From: Actinomycetota bacterium
Lineage (GTDB): Bacteria > Actinomycetota > Nitriliruptoria > Nitriliruptorales > Nitriliruptoraceae
Direction of reading: 5' to 3'
DNA length: 32,871 nucleotides
NCBI GenBank assembly: GCA_017852335.1
Contig: JAFMLG010000014.1
Location: forward strand, 1 to 32,871
This document shows positions 3,205 through 32,871 of this stretch, piece by piece; within the stretch, counting starts at the first letter, position 1, and each line of letters starts with the position of its first letter. Below the pieces are notes generated by a model that had not been told where the DNA came from, did not search any database, and saw only the letters and a list, made by a program, of their open reading frames with translations. The position numbers and the translations under genes were made by a program.

Positions 3205-4865
3205 GGCAGCAGCGGGGCGACGAGCTCCCGCACGGCGTCCGCGTCGGGCAGCGTCAGCGCCCGCTCGGCCGCGGCCCGGACCGCGACCGGGTCCAGCTGC
3301 GCGACGGTCCACCGGACGAGGTCGACCCGGGACGCGGTCACCGAGAGCTCCTCGACGCCGTAGGCGAGGAACAGCGCCAGCGTCGCCGGGTCCCCGGCGG
3401 CCTCGCCGCAGACGGCGGTCGGGACGCCGGCGGCCGCACCGGCCGCCGCGGTCCGGGCGACCAGCTGGAGCACCGCCGGGTTCGCCGCGTCCTGGTGCGC
3501 CCCGAGGGCACCGTGCGTGCGGTCGGACGCGGTCACGTACTGCGTGAGGTCGTTCGTCCCGATCGAGAGGAAGGCGGCCCGCTCGGCGAGGTGGGGAGCG
3601 AGCAGGGCCGCGGACGGGGTCTCGACCATGACGCCGGCCGGGGGAGGGGTCCGGCCGGTCGCGACCGCGCGCGCCTCGAGCCGCGCGACGCCGGCCGCGA
3701 GATCGGCGGGCGACGAGACCATCGGGAACATGACCCGGAGCCGTTCCGGTGCGTCGACCCCGAGCAGCGCATCCAGCTGCACGTCGAACAGGTCGGGGTG
3801 CGCCAGCGTCAGCCGCAGCCCGCGCAGCCCGAGGAACGGGTTCTGCTCGGCCGGGAGCGCGAGGTACCCGACCTCCTTGTCCCCGCCGATGTCGAGGGTC
3901 CGGACCACGGTCGGGTCGGCGAACGCCTCGACCGCGGCCCGGTACGCCGTCAGCTGCTCCTCCCGGTCCGGGGCGTCGTCGCGCTCGAGGAAGAGGAACT
4001 CGGAGCGGAACAGCCCGATGCCGTCGGCCGCGGCCTCGGCGGCGTCGGCGACGCCGTCGAGCGTCCCGACGTTCGCGGCGACGAGCACGCGGTGCCCGTC
4101 GAACTCGGTCCGCGTCCCGCGGTGTCGGCGGTGCTCCTCGGCCCGGCGGTGCTGACCCTCGATGGCGGTGGCTGCACGGTCCCGTTCGGTGTCGTCCGGG
4201 TCGACGATCACGCGGCCGGCGTCGCCGTCGACGAGCACCGTGGTCCCGTCGGTCACCGCGGCCATCAGCCCCGCGGCGCCGACGACGGCGGGGATGCCGG
4301 CGGCCCGGGCCACGATGGCGGTGTGCGACGTCGGGCCGCCGCGCTCGGTCGCGAACGCGGCGACGCGTCCGAGGTCGAGGCGGACCGTGTCGGCGGGGGT
4401 CAGGTCGTCGGCGCAGACCACGGCGTCGTCCGGCACGTCGGGGTCGGCGCCCTCACGGCCGGCCGCCGTCGCGACCAGCTCGCGGCCGACCCCGCGGACG
4501 TCGTCGGCCCGCTGGGCGAAGTACTCGTCCTCCATCGCGGCGAACGTGGCGGCCATCCGCTCGACCGCGGCCCGGATCGCCGCGACCAGCGGGTCCCCGG
4601 TCCCGGTCCCCGCGGCCACGTCCTTCGCCAGCGCCGGGTCGGTCGCGATGAGGGCGTAGGCGTCGAGGACGTCGGCCTCCTCGACCCGGCCCTCGTCCCG
4701 GACCCGGGCCGCGAGGCCCTCCAGGCGGTCCGCGGTGCCGCGGGCGACCTCGGTGAAGGTCCGGTCGGTCGGGAGGTCGTCGGGGACGTCCAGCGGCTCG
4801 ACGCGGACGGCCGGTCCGAGGGCGAGGCCCTCGGACGCGGCCCGCGCCTGCAGCTCCGTCCCCAC
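3201..4865 (-). CDS. ptsI: Phosphoenolpyruvate-protein phosphotransferase (PTS enzyme I)
   Basis: Enzyme I (554 aa) takes phosphate from PEP and passes it to HPr. The phosphorylated His is His181 in ERGGPTSHTAIVARAAGIPAVVG. The PEP-binding barrel shows GIGLFRSEFLFL, the signature LSIGTNDLTQYVTASDR, and the catalytic Cys486 in AVCGEAAGDP. Length is close to the usual 570 aa. The frame stays open far upstream, so the start had to be chosen. GTG at 4865 is where homology begins, and a -10-like TACGCT lies 6 bases before it, which suggests a leaderless transcript starting at the GTG. The gene heads a coupled operon with a HAD phosphatase, ispD and a HAD-like protein. No enzyme II is nearby. Confidence 0.95.
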   Translation of the reverse strand: MGTELQARAASEGLALGPAVRVEPLDVPDDLPTDRTFTEVARGTADRLEGLAARVRDEGRVEEADVLDAYALIATDPALAKDVAAGTGTGDPLVAAIRAAVERMAATFAAMEDEYFAQRADDVRGVGRELVATAAGREGADPDVPDDAVVCADDLTPADTVRLDLGRVAAFATERGGPTSHTAIVARAAGIPAVVGAAGLMAAVTDGTTVLVDGDAGRVIVDPDDTERDRAATAIEGQHRRAEEHRRHRGTRTEFDGHRVLVAANVGTLDGVADAAEAAADGIGLFRSEFLFLERDDAPDREEQLTAYRAAVEAFADPTVVRTLDIGGDKEVGYLALPAEQNPFLGLRGLRLTLAHPDLFDVQLDALLGVDAPERLRVMFPMVSSPADLAAGVARLEARAVATGRTPPPAGVMVETPSAALLAPHLAERAAFLSIGTNDLTQYVTASDRTHGALGAHQDAANPAVLQLVARTAAAGAAAGVPTAVCGEAAGDPATLALFLAYGVEELSVTASRVDLVRWTVAQLDPVAVRAAAERALTLPDADAVRELVAPLLP

Positions 4866-4871
4866 GCGGTC

Positions 4872-4877
4872 AGCGTA
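4872..4877 (-). promoter_or_regulatory. -10-like hexamer for ptsI (leaderless)
   Basis: On the minus strand the hexamer TACGCT lies 6 bases upstream of the GTG of ptsI, so transcription would begin at or next to the start codon. No Shine-Dalgarno sequence is seen between them. The same arrangement occurs at two other minus-strand genes in this window (starts at 11696 and 18096). No clear -35 is visible. Confidence 0.5.
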
Positions 4878-4990
4878 GACCCGGGGTCCGAGGGGGCGTC
4901 CGCCCCGGGGGTCGGCCACGAACCCCTCTCGGACCAGCGGTGGACCGCGACGGCGGTGCGCCGGCCCGGTCCCTCGACCCGACCCGCCAG

Positions 4991-4996
4991 TAGGCT
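4991..4996 (+). promoter_or_regulatory. -10-like hexamer upstream of the 5058 gene
   Basis: TAGGCT fits the TAnnnT pattern seen before most transcription units here. It lies in the 192-base divergent gap between ptsI and the gene starting at 5058, giving a predicted leader of about 55 bases. No convincing -35 is seen. Confidence 0.4.
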
Positions 4997-5024
4997 CGGG
5001 ACCGAGGTCCTGTCCGTCCGACGT

Positions 5025-5040
5025 GCTCCCGCGGGGGAGC
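5025..5040 (+). other. Leader hairpin before the 5058 gene
   Basis: GCTCCC (5025-5030) and GGGAGC (5035-5040) form a perfect 6-bp stem with a GCGG tetraloop, 17 bases before the ATG at 5058. It would lie inside the predicted leader RNA. In DNA this rich in G+C such stems are common, so the role is uncertain. Confidence 0.35.
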
Positions 5041-5057
5041 GGCCAGGGGTCCGTCCG

Positions 5058-5603
5058 ATGAGCACGTGGGGCGTCCTGACGCTGACGCCGCTGGGCACCG
5101 CGCGTCTCGCCCAGCACCGGCGCGCGCTGTCCGGCTTCCTCGACGGGCTGGTCGCCGTGCCCTCCGCCGCCGCGGCGCCGGCCCGAGCGCGGCTCGGCGG
5201 CATCCTGGGCGCCCTCGTGGACGGGCTCTCGTCGGTCCCGCGCGACGTCGACCGGATCGCGCTGCTCGACGACCGCGCCCTCGACTCCCTCGGCGTCGAG
5301 CCGGTCCTCGAGATGCTGTCCTGGCTGGACGACGACCACGCCGCCGTCGTCCGGGCCGCTCCCGTCACCGACGCGCTGAAGCGGGTCGAGGGCGACGCGG
5401 TCGTCGGCGGGGTCGAGCGGGCCGGGCTGTACGTCCCGCAGCCGCCGCACATCATCCGCCGCCGGGAGCTGGAGGCCGCGCTCGGCGCGACGGACCTCGC
5501 CCGGGTCGCCGGGGATCCGGCGGGCCTGCTCGTCGCGGCCGGGCACGCGATCCGCGTCGTGCGCGACGCCGGGCCGCCGTTCACCCTGACGGCCGCGGCC
5601 TGA
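5058..5603 (+). CDS. Conserved-looking protein of unknown function
   Basis: A 181-residue cytoplasmic-looking protein that I do not recognise. It has no signal peptide, membrane segment or metal motif. The N-terminal part is Ala/Leu-rich and probably helical (about residues 10-65). Acidic stretches follow around EMLSWLDDDHAAVV. A more conserved-looking core reads AGLYVPQPPHIIRRRELEAAL near residues 127-147. The ATG start lies after a plausible promoter and leader, and the stop is 5 bases before the ispF GTG, so it is the first gene of the ispF unit. High GC at third codon positions supports coding. The Kgd, ispF and cysS neighbours give no hint of function. Confidence 0.7.
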   Translation: MSTWGVLTLTPLGTARLAQHRRALSGFLDGLVAVPSAAAAPARARLGGILGALVDGLSSVPRDVDRIALLDDRALDSLGVEPVLEMLSWLDDDHAAVVRAAPVTDALKRVEGDAVVGGVERAGLYVPQPPHIIRRRELEAALGATDLARVAGDPAGLLVAAGHAIRVVRDAGPPFTLTAAA

Positions 5604-5608
5604 CCCGG

Positions 5609-6124
5609 GTGGGGCCGACCGTCCGCGTCGGTATCGGGACCGACGTCCACGCCCACGGTGCGCCCGTCCCCGACGCCACCGTCGTGCTCGGGGGTGTGAC
5701 GATCCCCTGCGACGCCCCGCTGGTCGGGCACTCGGACGCCGACGTCGTCGCGCACGCGATCGCCGATGCGGTGCTCGGGGCCGCGGCCCTCGGCGATCTC
5801 GGGGCGCGGTTCGGCGTCGACGACCCGGCGCTGGCCGGAGCGGACTCGCTCGGACTCCTCGCCCGGGTCGTCGCCGACGCCCGGGAGGCCGGGTGGGACG
5901 TGGGGAACGTCGACGTGACGGTCGTGGCGCTCCGCCCGCGGATCGCGCCGCACCGCGCGGCCATGCGGGACCGGCTCGCGGTCGTCCTCGGTGTGGACGT
6001 CGACGCCGTCTCGGTCAAGGCGACGACGACCGACGGTCTCGGCGCCGTCGGCCGCGGCGAGGGCGTCGCCGCCCAGGCGGTCTGCCTGCTCGTCGCCCGA
6101 GGGGACGCGTCCCCCCGGGAGTAG
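5609..6124 (+). CDS. ispF: 2-C-methyl-D-erythritol 2,4-cyclodiphosphate synthase
   Basis: IspF (171 aa) cyclises CDP-methylerythritol 2-phosphate with loss of CMP, two steps after IspD in the MEP pathway. Metal ligands are visible as Asp12 and His14 in GIGTDVHAH and His41 in VGHSDADVVAHAIADAVLGAAALGDLG. The C-terminal signature is KATTTDGLGAVGRGEGVAAQAV. The family works as a trimer with a metal at each subunit interface. The GTG at 5609 is 5 bases after the upstream stop. The frame is open further upstream inside the preceding gene, but homology begins here. The TAG stop also forms the first bases of a -10-like hexamer for cysS. Confidence 0.95.
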   Translation: MGPTVRVGIGTDVHAHGAPVPDATVVLGGVTIPCDAPLVGHSDADVVAHAIADAVLGAAALGDLGARFGVDDPALAGADSLGLLARVVADAREAGWDVGNVDVTVVALRPRIAPHRAAMRDRLAVVLGVDVDAVSVKATTTDGLGAVGRGEGVAAQAVCLLVARGDASPRE

Positions 6125-6127
6125 CCT
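6122..6127 (+). promoter_or_regulatory. -10-like hexamer upstream of cysS
   Basis: TAGCCT overlaps the stop codon of ispF and matches the TAnnnT pattern found before other units in the window. It would give cysS its own promoter besides readthrough from ispF. Confidence 0.35.
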
Positions 6128-6132
6128 CGCCG

Positions 6133-6150
6133 CGCGCCGCCCGCGGCGCG
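6133..6150 (+). other. Perfect hairpin in the ispF-cysS gap
   Basis: CGCGCCGC (6133-6140) and GCGGCGCG (6143-6150) form a perfect 8-bp stem with a 2-base turn, starting 9 bases after the ispF stop. It could be a terminator or processing stem for the ispF message, or the 5' end of a cysS leader. There is no U-run after it. Confidence 0.4.
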
Positions 6151-6178
6151 TCCGGCCCGTCCCGACCCGGTGGTCCGC

Positions 6179-7606
6179 ATGTCCCTCTTCCTGTTCGACA
6201 CCCTCCGCCGCGCCGAGGTCGAGTTCGTCCCGGCCGTCGAGGGCCGGGTCGGGATGTACGTCTGCGGCCCGACGGTCCAGGCCGAGCCGCACGTCGGGCA
6301 CGGGCGGGCGGCGGTCGTGTTCGACCTGCTCCGCCGTCACCTGCAGCACTCGGGGCTGTCCGTCCGGTACGTGCAGAACGTGACCGACATCGACGACAAG
6401 ATCATCCTCCGTGCCCGGCGCGAGGGCACCGACGCCGCCGCCGTCGCGACGCGGTACGGACGGGTGTTCGAGCGGACGATGGACGCGCTCGGGGTGCTGC
6501 CGCCCGACGTCCGGCCGCTCGCGACGGGCCACCTGCTCGAGATGCAGGAGCTGGTCACCGCGCTGATCGCGGCCGACCGGGCGTACGTCGTCGACGGCGA
6601 CGTGTTCTTCCGCGTGCGGTCCTTCCCCGCCTACGGACGCCTCTCGAACCGCCGCGTCGACGAGCTGGTCGAGGGCGAGGACGTCGTCGACGCCGACCGC
6701 AAGGAGGACCCGCTCGACTTCGCGCTCTGGAAGGCCGCGAAGCCCGGCGAGCCGTCCTGGCCGTCGCCCTGGGGGCGCGGACGTCCCGGCTGGCACCTCG
6801 AGTGCTCGGCGATGTCGGTGGCGCACCTCGGGGCCGGGTTCGACATCCACGGCGGTGGGCTGGACCTCGTCTTCCCCCACCACGAGAACGAGATCGCCCA
6901 GCACGAGGCCGCGCACGGCACGACGTTCGCCCGCCACTGGGTGCACAACGGCATGGTCACGATGGGCGAGGCGAAGATGTCGAAGTCCGTCGGGAACGTC
7001 GTCGGGCTCGGCGACGCCGTCGCCGCGGTCGGCCGTGGGCCGCTCCGCCTCTGGTACCTCTCGGCCCAGCACCGCACGCCGCTGACCTTCGACGACGACC
7101 GGCTGGCCGACGCCGGCACCGTGTTCGCGCGCTTCCTGACCTTCGCCCGGGCCGCCCGTCGCGCCGCCGGTGACGCGGCGCCGGACGGCGCGACCGGACG
7201 GCGTCATCGTGACGCGTTCGTCGCGGCGCTCGACGACGACCTGAACGCCCCCGTCGCGGTCGCGGCGCTCCACGAGCTGGTCGCCGACGGCGGCGAGCGG
7301 CTCCGTCGTCCGGACGCCGAGGCGGGCGCGCTGGCCGACCTCGCCGCGACGCTGGTCGAGCTGGCCGACGACGTGCTCGGACTCGGCGTCGCGGACGTCC
7401 TGGCCGAGGAGGCGGCGCTCGGCGCCCGCGTCGCGCCGCTCGTCGAGGACGCGCTGGCCCGCCGGACCGAGGCCCGCGCCGCGAAGGACTTCGCGACCGC
7501 CGATGCGATCCGCGACCGCCTCGCCGCGGCCGGCGTCGTCGTCGAGGACGGGCCGGCCGGCGCGGTCTGGCACGTCCCGGCCCGGCCGGTGGCCGCCCCG
7601 CGGTGA
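6179..7606 (+). CDS. cysS: Cysteinyl-tRNA synthetase
   Basis: CysRS (475 aa) charges tRNA-Cys with cysteine. The class I signatures are present: the HIGH-like HVGH at residues 38-41 and KMSKS at 266-270. Zinc ligands fit the family pattern, with Cys29 in YVCGPTV, Cys in HLECSAM, and His in FPHHENE. The DALR anticodon-binding tail follows, ending in ATADAIRDRLAAAGVVVEDG. The length and the tail distinguish it from the shorter mycothiol ligase MshC. ATG at 6179 is preferred; an in-frame GTG at 6170 adds only three residues. Its stop overlaps the rlmB GTG (GTGA), so the two are coupled, as in many actinobacteria. Confidence 0.96.
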   Translation: MSLFLFDTLRRAEVEFVPAVEGRVGMYVCGPTVQAEPHVGHGRAAVVFDLLRRHLQHSGLSVRYVQNVTDIDDKIILRARREGTDAAAVATRYGRVFERTMDALGVLPPDVRPLATGHLLEMQELVTALIAADRAYVVDGDVFFRVRSFPAYGRLSNRRVDELVEGEDVVDADRKEDPLDFALWKAAKPGEPSWPSPWGRGRPGWHLECSAMSVAHLGAGFDIHGGGLDLVFPHHENEIAQHEAAHGTTFARHWVHNGMVTMGEAKMSKSVGNVVGLGDAVAAVGRGPLRLWYLSAQHRTPLTFDDDRLADAGTVFARFLTFARAARRAAGDAAPDGATGRRHRDAFVAALDDDLNAPVAVAALHELVADGGERLRRPDAEAGALADLAATLVELADDVLGLGVADVLAEEAALGARVAPLVEDALARRTEARAAKDFATADAIRDRLAAAGVVVEDGPAGAVWHVPARPVAAPR

Positions 7607-29957: not shown

Positions 29958-31369
29958 TGACCGCACGCATCGGCCTGGTCGCGCTGGCGCGCGGCACCTT
30001 CGACCTCGGCGCCGCGGCGGACACGGCGGCCGCGCTTCGGGCGACGCTCGCCGCCGCCGGTCACGACGTCGTCGACCCGGTCGACCTCGCCGAGGACGGC
30101 GACGCCGCCGCGGCGGCCGCCCTCGCGCTGGCCGTCGCCGACGCCGCCTCGCCGCTGGACGCGGTGCTGGTGCTCGAGGCGACGTTCACCGACGGCACGC
30201 TGCCGTCGACGGCCGTCGCCCCGCTCCGCACCGACCTGCCGGTGGTGCTCTGGGGCGCGCCCGAGCCGCGGACCGGCGCACGCCTGCGGATGAACGCGCT
30301 CTGCGGGATCAACCTCGCCGCGTACCGCCTGCGTCACGAGGGTCGCGACGTCCGGGCCGTGTACGCCGACCCGGCGGGGCCCGACGCGGCGGCCCGTCTC
30401 GCCGCCGCGCTGACCGGCCCGTCGGACGCGCCGGCGCGGCCGGCGCCGCCCGCGCCGCCCGCGCCGACTGCCGAGGACCGGGTCCGGGCCGGGGCGGTCC
30501 GGGCCCGCCTCTCGGGGCTGACCGTCGGACAGGTCGGGGATCAGCCCGACGGGTTCGACCCCTGCGTCGCGGACCCCGCCGACCTCGCCGCGCTCGGCGT
30601 CGGGCTCGACCGCGTCGAGCTGTCCGCGATGTTCGACCGCGCCGCCGCCGCGGACGCCGCGGCGCTGGCACCGCTGCGCGCCGTCGTCGACGCCCGGGGC
30701 GCGGACGCGCTGGACCCCGTCGGGGTCGAGGCGACGCTGCGGCTCCACGTCGCCCTGCGCGGCCTCGCCGACGACCGCGGCTGGTCCGCGGTCGCGACGC
30801 GGTGCTGGCCCGAGTGCTTCGCCGAGGCCGGGGGCGCGGCCTGCGCCGCGCAGGGGATGCTCGCCGACGACGACCTGCCGGCGACCTGCGAGGCCGACGT
30901 GCTGGGGGCGGTCACGGCGGTGGCGCTGGGCGCCGCGGCCGGTCGGACCGCGTTCGTCGCCGATCTCGTCGACGCGGCGCCGGACGGCACGGTCGCGTTC
31001 TGGCACTGCGGGCTGGCCGCGCCGTCGCTGGCGCACCCCGACGAGCCCGTCGGGGTCACGGTCCACCCGAACCGGCGGGCCCCGCTGCTCCACGAGTTCC
31101 GGCTCCGCCCCGGACGGGTCACGATCGCCCGGTTCGGCCACACCGGTGGACGGCTGCGCCTGGCCCTCGGCGGCGGCGAGATCCTCGACGCCCCCCGGCC
31201 CTACACCGGGACCTCGATGGTGGTCCGGCCGGACACCCCCGCCGACGACCTGGTCGCCACCGTCATGGCGGAGGGTCTGGACCACCACTACGGCGTCGTC
31301 CACGGCGACGTCCGCGGGGTGATGGCCGCGCTGGCCGAGGAGCTCGGGATCCCCGTCCTGCCGCTCTGA
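29954..31369 (+). CDS. L-fucose/arabinose-isomerase-fold protein, possible sulfosugar isomerase
   Basis: A 471-residue protein of the fucose isomerase-like superfamily, which interconverts aldoses and ketoses with a divalent metal. The N-terminal Rossmann-like part (IGLVALARGTFDLGAAADTAAALRATL; VLVLEATFTDGT; LWGAPEP) leads to the C-terminal domain with TRCWPECF, PATCEADVLGAVTAVALGAAAGR (Glu313, Asp315), VAFWHCGLAAPSLA and LDHHYGVVHGDV (His444, His445), candidate metal and substrate residues. It is coupled to the YihV-like kinase by an ATGA overlap; a second ATG at 29957 is better spaced from the GGGAGGG site. From memory the sulfoquinovose isomerase SqvD/SftI belongs to this superfamily, so isomerisation of sulfoquinovose is a fair guess. 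Confidence 0.85.
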   Translation: MMTARIGLVALARGTFDLGAAADTAAALRATLAAAGHDVVDPVDLAEDGDAAAAAALALAVADAASPLDAVLVLEATFTDGTLPSTAVAPLRTDLPVVLWGAPEPRTGARLRMNALCGINLAAYRLRHEGRDVRAVYADPAGPDAAARLAAALTGPSDAPARPAPPAPPAPTAEDRVRAGAVRARLSGLTVGQVGDQPDGFDPCVADPADLAALGVGLDRVELSAMFDRAAAADAAALAPLRAVVDARGADALDPVGVEATLRLHVALRGLADDRGWSAVATRCWPECFAEAGGAACAAQGMLADDDLPATCEADVLGAVTAVALGAAAGRTAFVADLVDAAPDGTVAFWHCGLAAPSLAHPDEPVGVTVHPNRRAPLLHEFRLRPGRVTIARFGHTGGRLRLALGGGEILDAPRPYTGTSMVVRPDTPADDLVATVMAEGLDHHYGVVHGDVRGVMAALAEELGIPVLPL

Positions 31370-31387
31370 GCCGACCGGGGCCGCGCG

Positions 31388-31404
31388 CCCGGGGCCGCCC
31401 CGGG
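31388..31404 (+). terminator. Possible terminator hairpin after the isomerase gene
   Basis: CCCGGGG (31388-31394) and CCCCGGG (31398-31404) form a 7-bp all-GC stem with a CCG loop, 18 bases after the stop. There is no U-run, so termination is only suggested by position. Confidence 0.3.
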
Positions 31405-31443
31405 GCCGACCCGGGCCCCTCAGCGGACGTGCGACCCCCGTAG

Positions 31444-31449
31444 TACGCT
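31444..31449 (+). promoter_or_regulatory. -10-like hexamer for the binding-protein gene
   Basis: TACGCT, as in the ptsI and DUF4349 promoters. The predicted start falls near 31456, inside the palindrome CACGTACGTG (31453-31462), a typical place for a repressor operator. The leader to the ATG at 31607 would be about 150 bases. Confidence 0.45.
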
Positions 31450-31460
31450 CGGCACGTACG

Positions 31461-31580
31461 TGAGCCGCCCCGCCGGGAACGGGGTCGGACCCCTCCCCGT
31501 CGGCGCGGACGCGTCCGCGCGGACCCCGGGGCGGCTCAGGGGTGGTGCGCACGACACGTGCCGCGGAGGCTCCGCGGCAC
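31461..31580 (+). promoter_or_regulatory. Structured leader of the ABC binding-protein gene (candidate RNA switch or operator array)
   Basis: A perfect 12-bp inverted repeat, TGAGCCGCCCCG (31461-31472) and CGGGGCGGCTCA (31527-31538), encloses two inner elements. These are GGGGTC-G-GACCCC (31481-31493) and an 18-base perfect palindrome with core GGACGCGTCC (31503-31520). A separate perfect 10-bp hairpin, GTGCCGCGGA (31558-31567) with TCCGCGGCAC (31571-31580) and a GGC loop, ends 10 bases before the GGAGAGG ribosome-binding site. As RNA this looks like a closed junction plus a hairpin. CCCCG at 31468-31472 could instead pair with CGGGG at 31480-31484, giving alternative folds. I match it to no known riboswitch class. 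Confidence 0.45.
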
Positions 31581-31606
31581 GAGCACTGAGGAGAGGACGA
31601 CACACG

Positions 31607-32871
31607 ATGAAGAGGACCAAGCTGCGGTTCGCGGCTCCCCTCGCGGCGCTCGGGCTGGTGCTCGCCGCCTGCGCCGGGGACGCCGACGAGCCGGCCGCCA
31701 GCCCGGAGCCGGCCCCCGCGCCGGAGGCCGAGGAGAGCAACCCCTGGGACGACCTCGCCGAGGACGACTTCCTGGGCCGCGCCCTGGCCGGGGCCTACGA
31801 GGGCCGTTCGGTCAGCGTCTTCGGCTCGGAGCGCTCCGAGGTCGAGGCCGGCGCCTTCAACGACACCCTCGCGCTGTTCCGTGAGGCCACCGGCATCAAC
31901 GCCGTCTACACGGGTTCGGCGGACTTCGAGCCCCAGCTCAACGTCATGATCCAGGGCAACAACCCGCCGGACATGGCGCTGATCCCGCAGCCGGGCGGCG
32001 TCGTCGGGTTCGCGCAGGCCGGCTCGATCCAGGCCGTCCCGGCCGCGGTCGTCGAGCGGACCAACGCGCAGTTCCCCGCCGGCACCAACGACCCGTACGT
32101 CTACGAGGGGAGCACCTACGCGCTCCGCTACAAGACGGACCTCAAGTCGATCCTGTGGTTCAACAACGCGATCTTCGCCGACAACGGCTACGAGATCCCG
32201 GACACCTGGGACGGCCTGAAGGAGCTCAGCGCCACGATGATCGCCGACGGCATCACCCCGTGGTGCGTCGGCATCGAGTCGGGCGGCGCCACCGGGTGGC
32301 CGTTCACCGACTGGATGGAGGAGATGGTCCTCCGCCTCGAGGACGAGAACCTGTACGACGAGTGGACCGCCGGTGACGTGACCTTCTCGGACCCGCGCAT
32401 CGTCGCGGTCGCCGAGGAGATCCTCTCCGTCTGGAACACGCCGGGCATGGTCTACGCCTCGGGCGGCACCATCGCGGCCACGCCGTTCGGTGCCAACGCC
32501 GAGCCGCTGGTCAACGGTGACTGCGCGATGCACCGTCAGGCGCAGTTCTTCGCCTCGTTCTTCGACACCGCGGGCGGCACCATCGGCCCCGACGGTGACG
32601 TCGGCGTCGCGTACTTCCCGGCCGGTGGCGACGGGCGCACCCCGGTGCTGACCGCCGGGAACTCCGTCGGCGCGTTCCGTGACGCTCCCGAGGTCTGGGC
32701 GCTCATGACGTGGCTCACCGACAGCGAGGGCCAGGAGGCGCGTCAGCGCGCCCAGGCCGCGCGTGCGGCGGCGGCCAGCGGTGCGGGGGCGGCCTCCGGG
32801 TTCATGTCCTCGAACATCAACCTGGACCCGTCGGTCTTCAACCCGGTCGAGCAGACCTGGTACGAGACCCT
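31607..32871 (+). CDS. ABC transporter substrate-binding lipoprotein, AglE-like, cut by window end
   Basis: The first 421 residues of an extracellular solute-binding protein, open to the window edge. The signal peptide ends in lipobox LVLAAC (Cys22), followed by a Pro/Glu-rich spacer. The mature part begins SVSVFGSERSEVEAGAFNDTLALFREATGINAVYTGSADFE. The stretch YALRYKTDLKSILWFNNAIFADNGYEIPDTWDGLKEL...GITPWCVGIESGGATGWPFTDWMEEMVLRL closely resembles alpha-glucoside-binding AglE as I recall it. The ATG at 31607 follows GGAGAGG. It probably heads an operon with permease genes beyond the window. With GH13, the fructokinase-like kinase and GH31 it suggests uptake of alpha-glucosides. Binding of a sulfonated glycoside is an untested alternative. 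Confidence 0.93.
   Translation, partial: MKRTKLRFAAPLAALGLVLAACAGDADEPAASPEPAPAPEAEESNPWDDLAEDDFLGRALAGAYEGRSVSVFGSERSEVEAGAFNDTLALFREATGINAVYTGSADFEPQLNVMIQGNNPPDMALIPQPGGVVGFAQAGSIQAVPAAVVERTNAQFPAGTNDPYVYEGSTYALRYKTDLKSILWFNNAIFADNGYEIPDTWDGLKELSATMIADGITPWCVGIESGGATGWPFTDWMEEMVLRLEDENLYDEWTAGDVTFSDPRIVAVAEEILSVWNTPGMVYASGGTIAATPFGANAEPLVNGDCAMHRQAQFFASFFDTAGGTIGPDGDVGVAYFPAGGDGRTPVLTAGNSVGAFRDAPEVWALMTWLTDSEGQEARQRAQAARAAAASGAGAASGFMSSNINLDPSVFNPVEQTWYET

Follow-up and report, generated by a model that had tools for sequence, protein, structure and literature searches.

The leaders of the ompA and papA mRNAs of E. coli and of the aprE mRNA of B. subtilis are 5'-terminal stem-loops that stabilize the mRNA (primary papers in the reference list of PMC3997798). 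In other bacteria too, stem-loops in 5' untranslated regions (UTRs) are documented mRNA stabilizers (PMC7509114). The solute-binding proteins (SBPs) of importers usually exceed their translocators, and stem-loops 3' of SBP genes are a documented route to this excess of SBP over permease (PMC9045158). The msiK motif RNA (RF01747) forms the leader of a gene for a sugar-ABC ATPase in actinobacteria. It is a long hairpin that has an 11-nt bulge and carries the ribosome-binding site (RBS) within its base (PMC2864571).

We describe here the leader of an SBP gene of an uncultured actinobacterium that resembles each of these systems in part. Like the ompA, papA and aprE leaders, it has a predicted stem at or very near the presumed 5' end of the RNA, a Shine–Dalgarno (SD) tail after the structure, an exported product, and a fold that is kept where the sequence is not. 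Unlike them, it is branched, GC-rich and actinobacterial, and the stabilization is here a prediction. As in the Ruminiclostridium ABC importers (PMC9045158), a strong conserved hairpin lies between the SBP and permease genes of the relatives; however, the hairpin of the congeners is not followed by a U-run, and the permease gene has a promoter-like site of its own ahead of it. Like the msiK motif, it is a structured 5' UTR that belongs to a component of a sugar ABC system in actinobacteria, but in the window the SD lies outside the predicted stems, and the leader has no match in Rfam.

The gene and its relatives

The window, that is, the whole stretch of DNA analysed (32,871 nt), is one entire contig from the 1.7-Mb assembly of a small-genome member of the family Nitriliruptoraceae. 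The genus is represented by four genomes in our collection, those of the window and of the congeners L036, L037 and L038, and the leader comparison therefore has n = 4. All four carry the orthologous SBP gene, the congeners' proteins being 92–96% identical to that of the window, and a scan of genome contigs for further orthologues returned the same three congeners only. More distant orthologues (57% identity) were taken from another genus (G011 and G022). The gene starts at the ATG at 31607. An in-frame GTG at 31460 would lengthen the protein, but the ATG, with its SD and predicted lipoprotein signal, is the start common to the relatives.

Promoter and predicted fold of the leader

The promoter block is the best-conserved part of the region in the four genomes, CGACCCCYGTAGTACSCTC being common to all of them and present as a single copy in each. 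No -35 element was recognizable ahead of TACGCT. The assignment of this hexamer as the -10 element is supported by TATACT and TAGACT, which lie about as far from the start codon in G011 and G022. Judged by the conserved -10 alone, transcription would start at ∼31455–31458, and P1 of the window would then begin ∼3–6 nt 3' of the start; the relatives give a like spacing. The leader after the -10 is 146–157 nt long in the four congeners.

The original prediction, made from the window alone, had described here the -10-like hexamer, a palindrome at the start site, a perfect 12-bp stem closing 54 bases, two inner palindromes and a perfect 10-bp hairpin ahead of the RBS. All of these are present (Table 1), the inner palindromes being GGGGTCGGACCCC at 31481–31493 and the 18-nt GCGCGGACGCGTCCGCGC at 31503–31520, inside P3; the hairpin has the 3-base loop described, but its stem is 11 bp rather than 10 bp. 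The minimum-energy (MFE) and centroid folds of the window's leader agree with each other: P1 closes P2 and P3, and P5 follows. The SD is outside the stems in the predicted fold. Predicted SD accessibility varies from 0.17 to 0.67, values that speak neither for nor against a direct control of translation by sequestering the SD.

Table 1. Features of the leader and of the surrounding region. Positions are those of the window unless a congener is named.
Feature	Position	Strand	Remarks
Promoter block CGACCCCCGTAGTACGCTC	31432–31450	+	-10 hexamer TACGCT at 31444–31449; kept in congeners as CGACCCCYGTAGTACSCTC
Start-site palindrome CACGTACGTG	31453–31462	.	seen in sequence; absent from congeners' leaders
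P1, 5' arm of outer perfect 12-bp stem	31461–31472	+	counterpart stems in L036–L038
P1, 3' arm	31527–31538	+	54 nt between arms
P2, inner hairpin GGGA-ac-GGGGU-cgg-ACCCC-UCCC	31475–31497	+	in MFE and centroid folds; relatives have GGGGGGUC..GAUCCCCU
P3, inner hairpin	31499–31524	+	in MFE and centroid folds; relatives' individual folds have a hairpin of different sequence at the same place
P4, GUGGU-GCGC-ACGAC	31542–31555	+	weak in window, one G-G mismatch; strong GGGGC-NNNN-GCCCC in three relatives
P5, CGTGCCGCGGA-GGC-TCCGCGGCACG	31557–31581	+	11 bp, 3-nt loop, before RBS; same place in all congeners
Shine–Dalgarno GGAGAGG	31590–31596	+	GGAGAGGAC in all four congeners
ABC-importer solute-binding lipoprotein gene	31607–32871	+	SBP_bac_8, E 1.7e-9; truncated by contig end
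Strong GC-rich 3' hairpin	L036:4430–4463, L037:4439–4472, L038:4434–4466; also L010, L011		compensatory changes, two genera
Promoter-like site GTGCGTTAGCCT, -10 TAGCCT	L036:4520–4531, L037:4592–4603, L038:4510–4521		ahead of permease gene; kept in 3/3

Structure compared with chance

The whole leader folds with z = -2.46 and -2.34 in two computations. At 78% GC the folding energy alone is only mildly unusual, since z ≤ -2.4 was also obtained for 4 of the 82 segments sampled from the window. The stems themselves are rarer. Perfect stems of 10 bp or more with a span of up to 90 number 32 across the window. Only three of them have 12 bp, and P1 is one of these; P5 is also among the 32, of which only P5 and one other have a loop of 3 nt. 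In 300 shuffles of the leader, a 5' stem as long was obtained in 0.7%, a 3' hairpin like P5 in 1.0%, and both together in none, under criteria that were chosen post hoc with the sequence already seen. For this window, two perfect stems of this kind inside 130 bases are out of the ordinary, in line with the original prediction, but the overall folding energy is only modestly low.

The individual folding z of the relatives' leaders is only -0.9 to -1.4. The leaders of G011 and G022 (∼160 nt) gave no folding-energy signal and, by the criterion used, no P5-like hairpin, for which reason both were left out as support. Possible 5' stems were seen in these two, one of 11 pairs in G011 (shuffle p = 0.017) and one in G022 (p = 0.19).

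Leader architecture in the congeners

The leaders of the three relatives are 81–87% identical to one another, whereas the window's leader is ∼70% identical to any of them, with many gaps. The third codon positions of the SBP gene are 74–80% identical in all pairs. Compared with this ordinary rate, the window's leader (31450–31606) looks as if it had been rapidly remodelled, or replaced, since its divergence from L036–L038.

In all four leaders, an outer stem near the expected start encloses two hairpins, and another hairpin stands before the SD. Counterparts of P1, P2, P3 and P5 occur in every leader; P4 is strong in the three relatives and weak at best in the window. The predicted hairpin layout is thus kept across the four known congeners while the sequence drifts. 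Among the three alignable relatives (hand alignment for P1 and P2), P1 shows compensatory changes (U-A, C-G and G-U at one pair, U-G and A-U at another) and P2 a change from U-A to G-U, and P5 shows a compensatory change from C-G to U-A in L038. P4 and P5 have no broken pair in these three. In a simple neutral simulation that started from the hand-aligned stems of L036 and used the leader divergence observed, the probability of no more than one broken pair in 30 was P = 0.0004 for L038 and P = 0.011 for L037.

Covariation in homologues, proposed as a check of the original prediction, was found in part: some pairs are compensatory, but the signal is weak in a structure-blind alignment, which holds 2 doubly changed pairs only, a number reached by 54 of 500 shuffles. 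In the same alignment, sliding the partners by 1–3 columns lowered the pairing from 94% to 37–57%. P1 is part of the MFE fold of the L037 and L038 leaders up to the ATG, and is lost once the first coding bases are added. When the window was added to the hand alignment, P1 and P5 were fully paired with most of their pairs changed; because this alignment was built by following the structure, it is no test of the pairing. The conserved columns are those of the promoter, the stems and the SD tail, with no aptamer-like core, and the conserved unpaired sequence is limited to a short GCATC in the three relatives and the SD tail. Together with the promoter block kept at its 5' side, the shared stems and their compensatory changes fit the proposal that an RNA element begins at the predicted start.

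Searches for known regulators

An Rfam search, also proposed beforehand, gave no match for the leader at the gathering score, and none even at E up to 10; the msiK motif RF01747 was without a match as well. No conserved unpaired ligand-binding core was found among the orthologous leaders. A covariance model built from the three relatives failed to recognize the window's own leader, and in 35 genomes of the family it found only those three relatives and no leaders of other genes. Its next-best matches (G008, G006 and G032; E 0.005–0.017 per genome) were not ahead of SBP genes and were rejected as chance. No extra copies of the leader occur in the window's own genome, where the matches were parts of coding sequences or self-complementary only. 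There is no conserved upstream ORF among the orthologues, only GTG, ATG and TTG frames that do not match one another, which speaks against a leader-peptide attenuator. Nothing in these searches, or in the start-site palindrome, which does not recur, points to an aptamer core, to attenuation by a leader peptide or to an operator present in several copies. On present evidence, the leader is not a new class of regulator.

The region 3' of the SBP gene

The long hairpin GAGGTGCCGGCGCC...GGCGCCGGCACCTC and its variants lie directly 3' of the SBP gene in L036–L038; the promoter-like site GTGCGTTAGCCT comes next in all three, and in L038 the permease gene follows. The strong 3' hairpin, GGTGCCGGC...GCCGGCACC, stands behind the gene in five genomes (G011 and G022 included), with six pairs doubly changed. 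The relatives thus show the layout of the stoichiometry-control systems, a stem-loop immediately 3' of the SBP gene, with the permease gene after it in L038. The promoter-like site ahead of the permease gene suggests separate transcription units for the binding protein and the permeases. For the window itself we infer this arrangement from its relatives, since its contig stops within the SBP gene and the rest of its genome has no contig that matches the region 3' of it.

In L038, the product of the permease gene (4591–7014) that follows the hairpin and the promoter-like site has 807 aa, and a very long N-terminal extension precedes its BPD_transp_1 domain (residues 633–792).

Alternative explanations

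The leaders have 69–78% GC, and it could be argued that they pair by chance and look alike by descent, with no selected fold. The modest folding z, matched by 4 of 82 window segments, the unexceptional shuffle control on the structure-blind alignment and the absence of a folding-energy signal in G011 and G022 are in accord with this, as is the evolution of the leader among the three relatives, which is about as fast as that of third codon positions. Composition, however, does not readily account for one stem layout at matching places in four diverged leaders with compensatory changes, nor for P4 and P5 remaining unbroken in the three relatives, nor for the low neutral probabilities given above, nor for two long perfect stems that never came together in 300 shuffles. 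We consider this explanation unlikely, though it has to be taken seriously. Far less credible is that the palindromes are DNA operators at which a protein would repress or activate the sugar operon, an option of the original prediction that has in its favour the perfect palindrome at the start site and the several others 3' of it. The palindromes are not kept as sequences in the congeners, despite proteins 92–96% identical, the promoter block alone being retained; and the start-site palindrome with its flank (GCACGTACGTGAG) has no second exact copy across the four genomes.

The other option offered, a riboswitch-like RNA, is not supported by these results. In a regulatory switch, the P1–P5 fold would alternate with a pairing of the 5' arm of P2 to the loop and 3' arm of P5, under the control of a ligand, a protein or a small RNA. 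Given the full alignment of the relatives' three leaders, RNAalifold favours a P2/P5 helix of 11 bp (in L036, CCGGGGGGUCC with GGACCUCCCGG); in the alignment trimmed of P3 this pairing is about equal in energy to the local hairpins, and a gene for a transport protein is a usual target of such control. But one pair of the alternative is broken in L037 and one in L038, with none lost from the local hairpins, and runs of G and C are promiscuous in pairing. The lack of a conserved unpaired core and of an Rfam match, and a covariance model that recognizes neither the window's leader nor leaders of other genes, speak against it further, and a switch of this kind appears improbable. Since the long-range P2–P5 helix is possible in all three relatives, one may also imagine a lineage-specific leader RNA of the Nitriliruptoraceae that toggles between the local hairpins and this helix, with a sugar, a protein or the translation status as the signal, the helix layout and not the conserved letters carrying the function; we offer this as a speculation with little chance of being right.

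A proposed role for the leader

The leader is most likely of an ordinary mRNA-stabilizing or expression-setting kind, which fits better than a sugar-sensing riboswitch. Specifically, we propose, with about even confidence, that it is a structured 5' UTR, probably under selection, that sets the stability or expression of an SBP mRNA made as its own unit. The segment 31455–31606 would be the untranslated leader of this separately transcribed mRNA and would fold into a branched 5'-terminal domain, in which P1 closes off P2 and P3, followed by a P4 that is small or missing and by a strong P5 just before the SD. The paired 5' end and the hairpins may shield the RNA from 5'-end-dependent decay and may hold the RBS in a defined tail beyond the stems. 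The 3' hairpin would terminate transcription or protect the 3' end; either way, the binding protein would be made in excess of permeases that have their own promoter-like site. Together, the 5' structures and the 3' hairpin would give the SBP mRNA a higher level or a longer life than the mRNA of the permeases. Selection would then act on shape and stability and not on a ligand-binding sequence. We infer the start site, the mRNA half-life and the stoichiometry in this scheme from sequence.

If the structured-UTR reading is true, the locus would be an instance, from an uncultured, deep-branching actinobacterial family, of a general arrangement in which an SBP gene is expressed separately, flanked by a structured leader at the 5' side and a hairpin at the 3' side. 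As the window's leader has diverged past third codon positions with its layout kept, the locus is also a compact case for asking if selection at mRNA ends acts on shape alone.

Sequence upstream of the leader

Just 3' of the upstream operon, positions 31381–31419 of the window consist of dense, overlapping GC-rich inverted repeats that could not be aligned to the congeners; they are possibly the terminator of that operon. Between the PfkB kinase gene and the leader lies a gene for a 447-aa protein (30025–31369). The protein has no Pfam match at E 0.001, and is sugar isomerase-like by its gene neighbourhood and a reading of its sequence only.
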